From: a virus
Virus record (IMG/VR): IMGVR_UViG_3300047548_000652
Coordinates: 92,382 to 156,381 of that record
Strand: one strand, 5' to 3'
DNA length: 64,000 bases
Shown here: positions 11,163-58,335 of the stretch, in pieces
Layout of the letters: every line of letters starts with the position of its first letter
Position numbering within the stretch: position 1 is the stretch's first letter
Program-made: the position numbers and the translations under genes
The notes under the pieces: generated by a model
What the model was told of the DNA's origin: nothing
Seen by the model: the letters and a program-made list of their open reading frames with translations, nothing else
Databases searched by the model: none

Positions 11163-11854
11163 AGGGGCATATCATCACGAATCAAACTATGTGGTGTTCC
11201 ATTATATAACCCTGGTGGAAACGGATTTTTCATATCAACATATATTAATCTTTCACCAACCAAACCATTATGGTGTAGATTAGCAGACATCATTTCTTCA
11301 CCATTCATTTGATATCCAATCTTATAATACGTCTCCATGTTGATATATGTAGACATGTACTGATTCATAACATACGACGAACCAAATGCAAACTGATCAT
11401 TTCCAAAGTCACGGGAGGGCACCATACGGCAGTTTGGAATGTATATTTTTGTTGGGTCTAGTTGATCAAATGGAATAGAAGAATTCAAAGCATAATCAAA
11501 TCTAGTTTTCACAACCCAATCATACTGCTGTGTCTTTACCTCATGGTCAATCTTATACAGACAGGATCGAAACATTGAATAATAGGCATATGCTGAACTT
11601 GATGCTGGAAACTTTACTGCATCAGGTGTGCGAGTATATTTGTTGTTTAGAACCTGTGAAAACACAAAGTATTCTTCTTCAACACCCTTTACTGGTTTAT
11701 ATAGATCAAATACATCATTGTTGTCATACACACCATTTTTCCAGGTGTGAATGAAAATATCACAATCATGATGATCAAGAAGATTTCGTTTTAGATATTC
11801 ATAACCTTGCTTATAGGCTCTGGGCTGACCAGAAATACATACCGCTATTCTCAT
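11147..11854 (-). CDS. Glycosyltransferase-like protein (capsular type)
   Basis: This 235-residue protein begins RIAVCISGQPRAYKQGYEYL, followed by CDIFIHTW, VVKTRFDY and NDQFAFGSS. This sequence order occurs in a family of putative GT-A-like transferases found in phage and capsule loci (ISGQ.R start, then D-I-F-I-H-T-W, then R-x-D). The R-F-D in KTRFDY may be the metal site. Donor and acceptor are unknown. It overlaps the GT10 gene upstream by four bases and the kinase-like gene downstream by 16. Confidence 0.65.
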   Translation of the reverse strand: MRIAVCISGQPRAYKQGYEYLKRNLLDHHDCDIFIHTWKNGVYDNNDVFDLYKPVKGVEEEYFVFSQVLNNKYTRTPDAVKFPASSSAYAYYSMFRSCLYKIDHEVKTQQYDWVVKTRFDYALNSSIPFDQLDPTKIYIPNCRMVPSRDFGNDQFAFGSSYVMNQYMSTYINMETYYKIGYQMNGEEMMSANLHHNGLVGERLIYVDMKNPFPPGLYNGTPHSLIRDDMPLWKKK

Positions 11855-12717
11855 ATCACACCTTTATAAACATTATTCATAAACCATTTACTAAATCTAT
11901 TTGTATCGAGTTTATTATTTCTAGGATTTAGTACAGGCTTGTTCAACATATCATTATACTTATCATCGTTTTTATCAAGGTCTATGATAAAATCAATCAT
12001 GTCTTCATCACTATCAAAATCATGTCGATTGATAAATGCATCTGGATTGAAATCTATTTCTACTGTTGGACTTCCCCAATAGATTGGAATAGTTGAGCAG
12101 TATAATGCATGAAATATCTTCTCTGTCACATAACCAGGATATGATGAGTTCTCATAGCAAATATTGAACTTATGCTGTGCTAGAAAATGGAACTTGGATT
12201 TTTGAGCATTGATTCCATCTCTTGGTAGTACAAACCCTACATTGTTGAAAAGTGGTCCTCCACTATTCACTCTCTTATAGTTCGATATCCTATGAAAGAT
12301 ATTATTTCTTTCTTGACATCCACCATTAGCAACCACAAAACTACAAAACTGTTTTTGGTCAGTAGAATATAGTCTGCCCTGTCTAATATCAGGCAATCCA
12401 ATCTTCTTTAGATGAACCCAGTTATCCAATACATACAAAGGAAGTCTATAATGCCTTGAATCTTCCATATGATCAAAAGACAAGAAGAAATCGGCATTAT
12501 AGTTCCAAGGTCTTCGATTTTCACCTGTAAAGAATATCTTCACACAGTTATTATATTTTAGATTACTTTGACCAAAGGTTTCATCAGCAAAGATGAGATA
12601 TTCTGGATTCACATCATCTCTAACAATATCAAATGCTGAGGATAGAGTATCAATAAAGAACTCGTCCATTGTTGGAAAGTAGTCTGTGAATCCAAGTTTT
12701 AGTAATGGCTTTGTCAT
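11851..12717 (-). CDS. GT10-family (alpha-1,3/4-fucosyltransferase-like) glycosyltransferase
   Basis: This 288-residue protein contains the GT10 donor-binding signature: KFNICYENSSYPGYVTEKIF, then an A-L-Y-C-S-T-I-P-I-Y-W-G segment (about residues 190-220). GT10 enzymes use GDP-fucose, and some family members accept other GDP-6-deoxy sugars. The neighbouring GMD, ColD-like and Fcl/ColC-like genes would supply just such a donor. I infer transfer of fucose or colitose to a glycan; the acceptor could be a virion component or host surface polysaccharide. Four-base overlaps on both sides indicate a tightly coupled operon. Confidence 0.88.
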   Translation of the reverse strand: MTKPLLKLGFTDYFPTMDEFFIDTLSSAFDIVRDDVNPEYLIFADETFGQSNLKYNNCVKIFFTGENRRPWNYNADFFLSFDHMEDSRHYRLPLYVLDNWVHLKKIGLPDIRQGRLYSTDQKQFCSFVVANGGCQERNNIFHRISNYKRVNSGGPLFNNVGFVLPRDGINAQKSKFHFLAQHKFNICYENSSYPGYVTEKIFHALYCSTIPIYWGSPTVEIDFNPDAFINRHDFDSDEDMIDFIIDLDKNDDKYNDMLNKPVLNPRNNKLDTNRFSKWFMNNVYKGVI

Positions 12718-55637: not shown

Positions 55638-56282
55638 TTACTTCATATTTAGGTTAGATGGATGGTCCTTTGGTCTATTTTTGGCTATCTCACTAAGTTT
55701 CTTTTTAGTTTCTTGTGAAACTGGTTTGCGAACACGATTTTTCGCTTTTTCACTCATTTTAGTTTTAGATTCTTCTGTATGGGATTTTCCAAAAAAAGGA
55801 TTCTTTTCTCCCATATGAGATTTGGATATTTTATTACAAGTTTCTTCTGTTATTATTTGCTTGGCTCTTTTTTCTTTGATTCTTTTCTTTGATTCTTCTG
55901 TATGGAATTTTCCTTTTATCCAAGGTGTTTTGCCAAACATTGGATTGTTTTTTCCTAAGTTTCTTTCTTTCATGCTTAGGATTTTTGATTGACTTTGAGA
56001 CCAATGACCAAAATGTCTATTCGATAGGTTATAATATTTTTTACCAAGTTGATCATCAGGTATCAGCGAAAGCCATCTATATTCTTCTTCTAACATTACA
56101 TTTCTATCAATGTTTCTTTTTATTATTCTTCTTTTGAAATCATTTGGCCTTCTTCGATACGCTTCACGCATTCTTTTAGACGAACATACATAACCATCAT
56201 TTTCTGTTCCATAGTGACATCCTATATAATACATTTTACGCTTTTTATCGAACCAAATATAAATAAATCCCGACTTTTCCAT
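55638..56282 (-). CDS. GIY-YIG homing endonuclease with NUMOD3-like repeats
   Basis: From the ATG at 56282 (214 residues; GGAG six bases before). The GIY-YIG domain is complete: FIYIWFDKKRKMYYIGCHYG gives the two signature strands (IYI..., YYIG), then RMREAYRRRPNDF and the metal-binding Glu region NVMLEEEYRWLSL. From about residue 112 NUMOD3-type repeats occur (GKNNPMFGK, GEKNPFFGK, HTEESKKRIKEK). It lies between genes 15 and 14 and has its own TATAAATA late promoter. It presumably cuts intronless relatives near its insertion site. Confidence 0.9.
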   Translation of the reverse strand: MEKSGFIYIWFDKKRKMYYIGCHYGTENDGYVCSSKRMREAYRRRPNDFKRRIIKRNIDRNVMLEEEYRWLSLIPDDQLGKKYYNLSNRHFGHWSQSQSKILSMKERNLGKNNPMFGKTPWIKGKFHTEESKKRIKEKRAKQIITEETCNKISKSHMGEKNPFFGKSHTEESKTKMSEKAKNRVRKPVSQETKKKLSEIAKNRPKDHPSNLNMK

Positions 56283-56312
56283 CATACTCTCCTAATAAAA
56301 TAGACTATGATG

Positions 56313-56320
56313 TATTTATA
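56313..56320 (-). promoter_or_regulatory. Late promoter TATAAATA before the GIY-YIG gene
   Basis: Perfect late box 31 bases before the endonuclease ATG at 56282, in the gap after gene 14. Transcripts would also serve genes 15 and onwards. Confidence 0.8.
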
Positions 56321-56328
56321 AAATCGTG

Positions 56329-57201
56329 TCAGTTAGGCATTCCAAATGGGTTTTGTTCCATAACGGAAATAAGGGTATTTGCTTCTGTTTGAATCTGTTT
56401 GTTGTCAAACATGTCGTAATAGACATAATCACCCATAGTATCACTGGTAGAAACAGACCTTACAGTATTGGATGTATTTCCAACAAGATTTGCTGTTGTG
56501 GAGAAAGTTCCCTTGACATCCACCAGATATATCTTGCTGTTGGATGGGTCCCAGTTGGATACCTTGGCAGAAGCATTTGCTGTTGAATATGAAAGCCCTT
56601 GATAGACCTGCTCACCAATAAAGTAGTTTCCAGAGCCACCAAGTTGAAGTTCTATTGTATATGACACAGTATCCTCAACATCATCAATAACATCAACTCC
56701 TGTGTTAAACTTCTCATTAGAAGAACGATAGGTTTCACATCGTAGTTCGTATACATAAGGAACTTTATATCCTTTAGTGAAAAATAGTAGTTCTTCTTCG
56801 ACAAACTTAATTTCAAATATTTTGTTCATTACAGGAACAAATAATAGATCACCTTCCCGTGGTCTTATAGTTATGTTGGTTGGAATATTCTTATCAAACA
56901 TTCTTTTTGCCACGATAAAGTTTGAGTTTTCACGGACCTCAAGACCAAACTTAGAGAAGAAATCACCCCCCCCTTCATATCCATCAACATTGGCAATATA
57001 CATTTCAATGAGATATGCTTTTTCAAACTTGGATTGCATATTCTCACCAAAGATGACATCTGTGTCATCCCAATCTTCTCTGGGCATATAGTAGATATCG
57101 TGGCCATTCATACGAATAGATTCAACTAATAAATCCTCAAACAAAAATTGCTCTGAGGACTTTCTACCAGGAAATGGTCTAAAATAATGGTTAGTTGCCA
57201 A
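56329..57201 (-). CDS. 14: Neck protein (T4 gp14) with inferred TTG start
   Basis: This 290-residue neck protein joins head to tail. It contains LLVESIRMNGHDIYYMPRED, VIFGENMQSKFEKAYLIEMY and GGGDFFSKFGLEVRENS, matching gp14. Relatives usually begin near ATNHYFRPF; here the codon before A-T-N-H is TTG at 57201, with GAAGGA nine bases upstream, so TTG is taken as start. No in-frame ATG precedes it (an earlier TTG lies at 57243). The upstream 10 bases are shared with the end of a GIY-YIG gene. The C-terminal beta extension is longer than in T4. Confidence 0.88.
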   Translation of the reverse strand: MATNHYFRPFPGRKSSEQFLFEDLLVESIRMNGHDIYYMPREDWDDTDVIFGENMQSKFEKAYLIEMYIANVDGYEGGGDFFSKFGLEVRENSNFIVAKRMFDKNIPTNITIRPREGDLLFVPVMNKIFEIKFVEEELLFFTKGYKVPYVYELRCETYRSSNEKFNTGVDVIDDVEDTVSYTIELQLGGSGNYFIGEQVYQGLSYSTANASAKVSNWDPSNSKIYLVDVKGTFSTTANLVGNTSNTVRSVSTSDTMGDYVYYDMFDNKQIQTEANTLISVMEQNPFGMPN

Positions 57202-57586
57202 GATTTTTATTCCTTCTTCTTTCCCAATATAGTTTTCTCGCAATAGACATTTTTTGTTTGGTCTCTAAAGATGCTTTATGACCTTTGAGTTTTCCCTTTT
57301 GAGCCTTACTCATCTTTTGTTTAGATTCTTCTGTGTGCTTTTTTCCATATAAAGGATTATTACTGCCAGACACATCTTTATGATTTTTAGATATTTTTTT
57401 CCTAGATTCTATGCTTAGACCTTTTTTATTCTTTATAGATACATCAGGTCTTTCATTATATTGTTCTTTCATTATTTTTGATGAACATATATAGCCATCA
57501 TTAGTTGATCCTTTATGAGAACCAACATAAAGTTTATTTGTTTTATGGTCTGTCCAACAATATACAAATGCTTCTTTTTCAACCAT
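57191..57586 (-). CDS. GIY-YIG-related protein, apparently lacking the catalytic Glu region
   Basis: This 131-residue protein is related to the nuclease at 55638-56282: AFVYCWTDHKTNKLYVGSHK, NDGYICSSKIMKEQYNERPD. After NERPD it jumps straight into NUMOD3-type repeats (SIESRKKISKNH, NNPLYGKKHTEES), missing the roughly 50-residue stretch that holds the metal-binding Glu in the longer relative. It may therefore be inactive or a remnant. It lies exactly between genes 13 and 14, and its last codons overlap the start of gene 14. Confidence 0.8.
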   Translation of the reverse strand: MVEKEAFVYCWTDHKTNKLYVGSHKGSTNDGYICSSKIMKEQYNERPDVSIKNKKGLSIESRKKISKNHKDVSGSNNPLYGKKHTEESKQKMSKAQKGKLKGHKASLETKQKMSIARKLYWERRRNKNLGN

Positions 57587-57591
57587 ATATT

Positions 57592-58335
57592 TTATCCAAC
57601 ATAAAAACCCAAAGGCTCCTCATAAGTATTTCTAATGAGTTGTTCCAAATCTTGTATTTCTTGAACTGCCTCATCATATATCTGTTGACCATTCATCATT
57701 ATACCACCTGGAAGTTGCATACCCTGGAACTTCTTCATGTTGGTTCCCCACTGACGCTTCATGTAGGCAACACCAAGCCTTTTTAGCATTCGATCATTCC
57801 ATACATCAGGATAGGTACTTGGATCAAGAATAATATAACCTTCAATGATGATATATTCATTTACCTGAATATCATATGACCAATCCCAATCAATATAAAG
57901 CTTATTTGAATGTCTGGTGAACCGAATAGGTGTCTCTCCAGAGAACAACATGTCCAGTGTACGGATATGTTGTTGAGTTAGAACATAGTTAACATATGAT
58001 GTTGATGTAAAGTCATATAGTTCATGTAGACGAAGTTGGTATCTCAGGTCAAACATATTGACTGAGGCATTGGTCGATCCAACAGGGAAGATTCGAGTAA
58101 CACCTATGATATTATCGGTGATAGGAATGAACTTGTCGTCTTTATTTTGTTGGGTGATCTGGTGTTTTAGATACCAGCGTTCAACTCCATCAAAATGAAA
58201 GTCTTGGTAATATTGCAAAGCCATATCAACACAATCATCAACCTGATCATCATCAATGTTGATATCCAAGACTGGTGCCCCAAGTTGTCTTAAGCACCAA
58301 TCTTTATATTGTTCTCTTGTTGTTGGAATAGCCAC
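57592..58335 (-). CDS. 13: Neck protein (T4 gp13)
   Basis: The 247-residue head completion/neck protein begins TREQYKDWCLRQLGAPVLDI. It contains DDCVDMALQYYQDFHFDGVE, VTRIFPVG and YLIDWDWSYDIQVNEY-type strands, and LKRLGVAYMKRQWGTNMKKF, all characteristic of gp13. Length is below T4 gp13 (309). A TATAAATG late-type box stands 26 bases upstream. Confidence 0.93.
   Translation of the reverse strand: MAIPTTREQYKDWCLRQLGAPVLDINIDDDQVDDCVDMALQYYQDFHFDGVERWYLKHQITQQNKDDKFIPITDNIIGVTRIFPVGSTNASVNMFDLRYQLRLHELYDFTSTSYVNYVLTQQHIRTLDMLFSGETPIRFTRHSNKLYIDWDWSYDIQVNEYIIIEGYIILDPSTYPDVWNDRMLKRLGVAYMKRQWGTNMKKFQGMQLPGGIMMNGQQIYDEAVQEIQDLEQLIRNTYEEPLGFYVG

Follow-up and report, generated by a model that had tools for sequence, protein, structure and literature searches.

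Where does translation of an essential phage gene begin once a homing endonuclease gene has come to occupy the space directly before it, and did that endonuclease supply the start? The question is raised by gene 14 in the window, the 64,000-nucleotide stretch of DNA analysed here, which comes from a virus record of 156,381 bases, a T4-like myovirus represented by one metagenomic contig. Gene 14 is an essential virion gene that encodes a neck protein. In the window, gp13, gp14 and gp15 are encoded in that order on the minus strand, to which all window features below belong.

The gene 14 start and the endonuclease reading frame

Gene 14 (56329..57201) specifies a protein of 290 residues when read from a TTG, the neck protein or head closure protein Hc2 (PF11649, E 8e-30; PHROG 460, E 2e-71). 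The match to PF11649, together with gp13 upstream and gp15 downstream (PF16724, E 6e-61), identifies the product as the T4 gp14 neck protein. Gene 13 (57592..58335; PHROG 211, E 1e-40), which encodes the neck or head-tail adaptor protein Ad2, starts with GTG and ends with a TAA at 57594-57592. Five nt after this stop, at 57584..57586, is the ATG of a 131-residue open reading frame (57191..57586) that matches NUMOD3 (PF07460, E 5e-17) and PHROG 314, homing endonuclease (E 8e-8).

On the minus strand, the junction with gene 14 reads ...AAA GAA GAA GGA ATA AAA ATC TTG GCA ACT AAC CAT TAT TTT.... As an earlier note on this DNA had proposed, a TTG (57199..57201) directly precedes the codons for ATNHYF within the 3ʹ end of the endonuclease reading frame. 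It occupies the alignment column that holds the ATG of relatives. The ribosome site assigned to gene 14, GAAGGA (57211..57216), was likewise found inside the endonuclease gene, with AAGGA 9 nt upstream of the TTG, and the claimed absence of an in-frame ATG is borne out, the first lying 30 codons downstream. The endonuclease reading frame ends ...AAT CTT GGC AAC TAA; its stop (57193-57191) falls in gp14 codons 3-4, giving an 11-nt overlap with gene 14 codons 1-4 (57191..57201) whose register is identical in a related endonuclease locus (L027/L089). Seen in the sequence alone, gp14 has both its ribosome site and its start codon within the 3ʹ-terminal part of a decayed endonuclease reading frame. 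RNA structure over the gene 14 start gave no signal (z 0.39). By a rough Shine-Dalgarno-weighted start picker applied to the window, about 67 of the 78 genes start with ATG.

The earlier assignment of the upstream gene to the GIY-YIG class stands in that the reading frame is that of a homing endonuclease, but not as a complete GIY-YIG domain; only NUMOD3 passes a Pfam threshold. The C-terminus matches PF07460 in two stretches of the 131-residue reading frame, and near the N-terminus FVYCW...YVGSHKG aligns with the GIY...YIG motif of intact relatives. Residues 5-48 are 68% identical to L089 (the L027 contig), and identity to phage relatives over the first 48 residues is 68-71%; a search of the Pfam library gave no GIY-YIG match. 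The catalytic Glu and Asn belong to a segment (LE/FE..ILK and FYN in L027/L089, L086 and L087) that is absent, and in the alignment with these loci the window protein jumps from ...YNERPD directly to the NUMOD3 part (roles of the GIY-YIG catalytic motifs taken from PMC2988022). Because this segment is missing, we read the gene as a degenerate descendant of a free-standing GIY-YIG/NUMOD3 endonuclease and not as a working member, most likely a deletion derivative that has lost catalysis but retained both ends, and site-specific cleavage and homing would be expected to be absent. Loss of the catalytic segment with retention of both ends is the outcome to be expected were gp14 dependent on the 3ʹ end of the endonuclease gene.

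Within the same family, L086 (2149-2745) carries an in-frame stop inside a NUMOD3 repeat and is a further copy in decay. The window also contains a second free-standing GIY-YIG/NUMOD3 endonuclease, of 215 residues, between genes 14 and 15 (55638..56285); its catalytic segment is present and it is apparently intact. A T4 late-promoter-like TATAAATA lies upstream of this second gene (window 55638-56320), and leaders similar to its own are found in related L004-family cassettes at 13/14. Among isolates, endonuclease relatives (Sinorhizobium phiN3) sit elsewhere, adjoining nrdC.11, and not at 13/14.

The insert-free relative and the origin of the TTG

The closest insert-free relative of the window is L014 (gp13 83% and gp14 79% identical), its sister with a support of 96 in a gp14 tree of 113 rows from whose alignment the start region was left out. 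The GTG start of gp13 (window 58333-58335) is common to the window and L014, ATG being found in nearly all others. Since L014 is closest for both gp13 and gp14 and has the same gp13 GTG, both flanks of the window insert share their nearest kin. The 13/14 junction of L014 lacks the insert and measures 6 nt, the gp13 stop TAA being followed by GGGATC and then ATGGCAACAAAT; in the window, TAA is followed by AATAT, the endonuclease ATG and, at the far end of the endonuclease, AAAATC and then TTGGCAACTAAC. This comparison of the junction with a close insert-free relative, suggested in the earlier note as a check, reveals that the homologous codon there is ATG. Measured from the gp13 stop, the endonuclease ATG (5 nt) lies near the 6-nt offset of the L014 gp14 ATG, as would be expected if the insertion had displaced or taken over the old start.

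It had been suggested that the parasite supplied the TTG by inserting exactly at the old start codon. The ribosome site inside the insert and the ATG of L014 agree with this claim; its further part, that the TTG necessarily came from the parasite, is not supported. The sisterhood of the window and L014 implies either that the insert and the TTG arose on the same branch, in one order or the other, or that the insert was lost in L014. Because ATG and TTG differ by one base and the three preceding bases (ATC) match the L014 empty site, a later A-to-T change appears about as probable as arrival of the TTG with the junction. The TTG is also not an automatic product of insertion, because most inserts at this site leave ATG in place (17 dereplicated insert-bearing lineages), including those of L086 and L087, which are of the window's family; these two loci rule out the TTG as a trait common to that endonuclease family. 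In a third same-family insert (L027 from 2983 onward and L089-L092 from 3013 onward, five near-identical contigs), an extra T at gp14 codon 7 puts the ATG-MATNHYF start in a different frame from the remainder of gp14; +1 frameshifting, a broken gene or an unrecognised start would each account for this. A TTG in relatives without the insert had been named as evidence against the claim; none is seen in the nearest, L014, and one occurs further away, in L151, whose gp14 follows a 41-nt leader that holds no endonuclease reading frame.

We consider it probable that a free-standing GIY-YIG/NUMOD3 endonuclease gene inserted between gp13 and the gp14 start and displaced the old initiation region, and that gp14 is now translated from the TTG through the AAGGA inside the parasite. 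Ribosomes that terminate 8 nt inside gp14 would perhaps aid its initiation. The remnant of the dead gene would have been retained because deletion of its 3ʹ end would silence essential gene 14.

Start codons across the 13/14 insertion hotspot

Many unrelated inserts are found at the 13/14 junction, among them GIY-YIG genes of several families, HNH genes, a 491-residue endonuclease-like gene (L005) and an insert with no endonuclease features (L029). In addition to the window, gp14 starts with TTG in L004/L006, which carry a different, intact GIY-YIG enzyme, in L140, where the inserted enzyme is reverse-oriented, and in L151. GTG starts are found in one clade (L156-161), with endonucleases in some members and not in others. 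A second endonuclease of L140, located before gp13 (11803-12552, minus strand), begins MATQITNRNDF, which resembles the MATITNRNDF with which gp13 opens; start capture of this kind, accompanied by duplication, may also have taken place at gene 13.

The pattern used for the first gp14 census (MA[TV][SN]HYF) was biased toward ATG, and a start-independent search was added as a correction; chance matches in scans with TTG- and GTG-start patterns were excluded by translation. The start state changes 11 times on the gp14 tree. Junctions of at least 12 nt, a threshold picked after the data had been seen, precede all 16 non-ATG gp14 genes versus 25 of 92 ATG genes, and among independent phylogenetic pairs 8.7 go the same way and 0 the opposite way (median p 0.004). 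In the start-blind subset the corresponding counts are 11/11 and 6/46, with 6.7 of 7 pairs the same way and 0 opposite (median p 0.016); thresholds of 5-20 nt applied to this subset leave 5.5-6.7 of 7 pairs in agreement. Presence of an insert alone (gap of at least 250 nt) was not a significant predictor of a non-ATG start with pairing (median p 0.125); for dereplicated rows taken without phylogenetic pairing, Fisher p was 0.010-0.016. In the census, gp14 has left ATG for TTG, GTG, ATT or ATC only at junctions of at least 12 nt. Such longer new junctions consist of an endonuclease gene, the fossil of one, or a short leader, possibly the scar of one; judged from these sequences, rewritten junctions and non-ATG gp14 starts are associated in general.

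The single base that separates the window from the L014 site could reflect ordinary drift of the start codon, in which a change from ATG to TTG was neutral or lowered expression and was linked to the insertion only by chance. Drift would also accommodate the GTG of gp13 in the same lineage, which is used without any insert, the TTG of L151 and GTG of the L156-161 clade where no endonuclease is present, and the insert-only association that loses significance after pairing. However, non-ATG gp14 occurs at 0 of 67 short, unmodified junctions (<12 nt) in the census and at 0 of 40 in the start-blind subset, and the cyanophage and Methylophilales isolates inspected all have ATG with junctions of 1-6 nt. 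Drift is a rather unlikely explanation.

Self-protection, in which the gp14 start region would be the recognition target of the endonuclease and a carrier that had lost the ATG would be immune to cutting, is very improbable. Cleavage sites distant from the endonuclease gene have been reported (PMC2988022); with a cut site outside the insert, donor resistance would have to come from sequence differences, and two TTG lineages (L004 and the window) carry different endonucleases. Yet most carriers keep ATG, and free-standing enzymes are reported to cut hundreds or thousands of bp away (reviewed in PMC2988022). A sequencing or assembly error at the junction, conceivable in a single metagenomic contig, deserves little credence, as the nearest relative is the same for both flanks and another lineage also has TTG at this codon, in two independent contigs (L004 and L006). 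Hardly any weight can be given to a gp14 start at the upstream TTG (57241..57243), which would add 14 residues: the frame is open, and this is the sole candidate start after an in-frame TAG 21 codons upstream of the gene 14 TTG, but it has no recognisable Shine-Dalgarno sequence, the extra residues are endonuclease coding sequence in another frame, relatives begin at the 57201 column, and the start picker, not told the answer, preferred 57201.

Apparent ATT and ATC starts and known systems

ATT is a very rare start codon. Apparent ATT starts of gp14 are nevertheless found in T4-like metagenomic lineages (L191, L202, L211, L231, L214, L216, L230, L177 and L179), and apparent ATC starts in L193 and L220; there were no ATT starts of gp14 among the isolates inspected. 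The junction is 12 nt or longer in all of these loci, and in several there is an endonuclease gene or fossil. In nearly all, a recognisable Shine-Dalgarno sequence lies upstream of gp14 column 1, and an in-frame stop is located 3-11 codons upstream with no ATG, GTG or TTG between. Given that gp14 residues 2-7 are conserved, initiation at the ATT/ATC column is the simplest reading. A GTG or TTG at gp14 codon 5 is a formal alternative in L191, L202 and L231, whereas L211, L214, L216 and L230 have no such alternative before about codon 19.

Among L191, L211 and L231, the HNH endonucleases share 60-66% identity and the gp14s behind them just 48-60%, yet all three gp14s start with ATT. L191 and L231 have exactly the same 16-nt junction, GTAGGAACCTAAA-ATT, which this endonuclease family takes into gp14 backgrounds of 48% identity, and the 16-nt tail GTAGGAACCTAAAATT is identical in L191, L231 and the fossil L202 and occurs nowhere else among the loci examined. 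The insert-free sisters L196 and L221 start gp14 with ATG. The endonuclease ATG of L231 overlaps the gp13 stop by one base beyond the spacing seen at most sites, as does the gp14 ATG of L196; similarly, the endonuclease ATG of L069 lies 1 nt past the gp13 stop, at the offset of the gp14 ATG in L082.

Decayed copies retain the same arrangement. The L202 fossil (around 1671-1773) consists of 29 codons of the HNH family, MNHKHHIIPKHMGGTNDPFNLVELTVEER followed by a stop, 86% identical to L191 over 28 residues, and keeps the ribosome site, the tail and the ATT directly before gene 14; its sister L195 has ATG. In L177 (around 2357-2401), a 12-residue HNH fossil lies directly before gene 14, with ribosome site and ATT kept. 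When L216 and L214 are compared with L230 for scars, L216 has a 14-nt leader only, the last 10 bases of which are identical to the tail of the L230 endonuclease; ATT follows in both. The short leaders of L161, L193, L220 and L151 are presumed to be endonuclease scars, and L053 looks like a clean deletion of an endonuclease of the L034 type.

Tentatively, then, 13/14 endonucleases may repeatedly capture the native gp14 initiation region and supply in its place a ribosome site and a weak start (TTG, GTG, ATC or even ATT) carried by the cassette. The phage would thereafter depend on the parasite's 3ʹ end, and degenerate or almost wholly erased endonucleases would persist as the translation start of an essential gene, a translational addiction in which AUU initiation is spread by a mobile element.

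Parts of this arrangement are familiar from T4, in which the GIY-YIG seg genes are intergenic (segG between 32 and 59, segF between soc and 56), gene 32 promoters lie inside segG, and embedded control signals of essential neighbours are said to favour retention (PMC2988022). Like these, the window endonuclease is an intergenic GIY-YIG gene between conserved phage genes with a neighbour's control signals inside. In contrast to T4, the captured signal is translational, namely the downstream gene's ribosome site and start codon; that codon is no longer ATG, and the endonuclease has probably died. T4 mobE, segC, segF, mobA and mobC overlap their upstream genes, for which translational coupling or ribosome scanning has been proposed (PMC2988022). 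The window has a comparable start/stop overlap between endonuclease and neighbour; however, the dependence in T4 is that of the endonuclease on the upstream host gene, whereas here the downstream host gene would depend on the endonuclease 3ʹ end. Insertion of mobE in Aeh1 nrdA likewise reshaped an essential phage gene, which is in pieces and still functional (cited in PMC2988022 and PMC10448857); there the nrdA protein is split, whereas in the window only the gp14 initiation region would have been replaced. No precedent for a captured translational start in a decayed endonuclease was found in the literature searched.

T4 parasites were known to embed the promoters of neighbouring essential genes; here, an essential virion gene has its ribosome site and its start codon embedded in the same way. 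Apparent AUU and AUC starts of this structural gene would be mis-called by gene callers limited to ATG, GTG and TTG. Related loci provide the full series of empty site, live endonuclease, decayed endonuclease and short scar, which makes testable the idea that a selfish gene may protect its remains by serving as the translation start of another gene.
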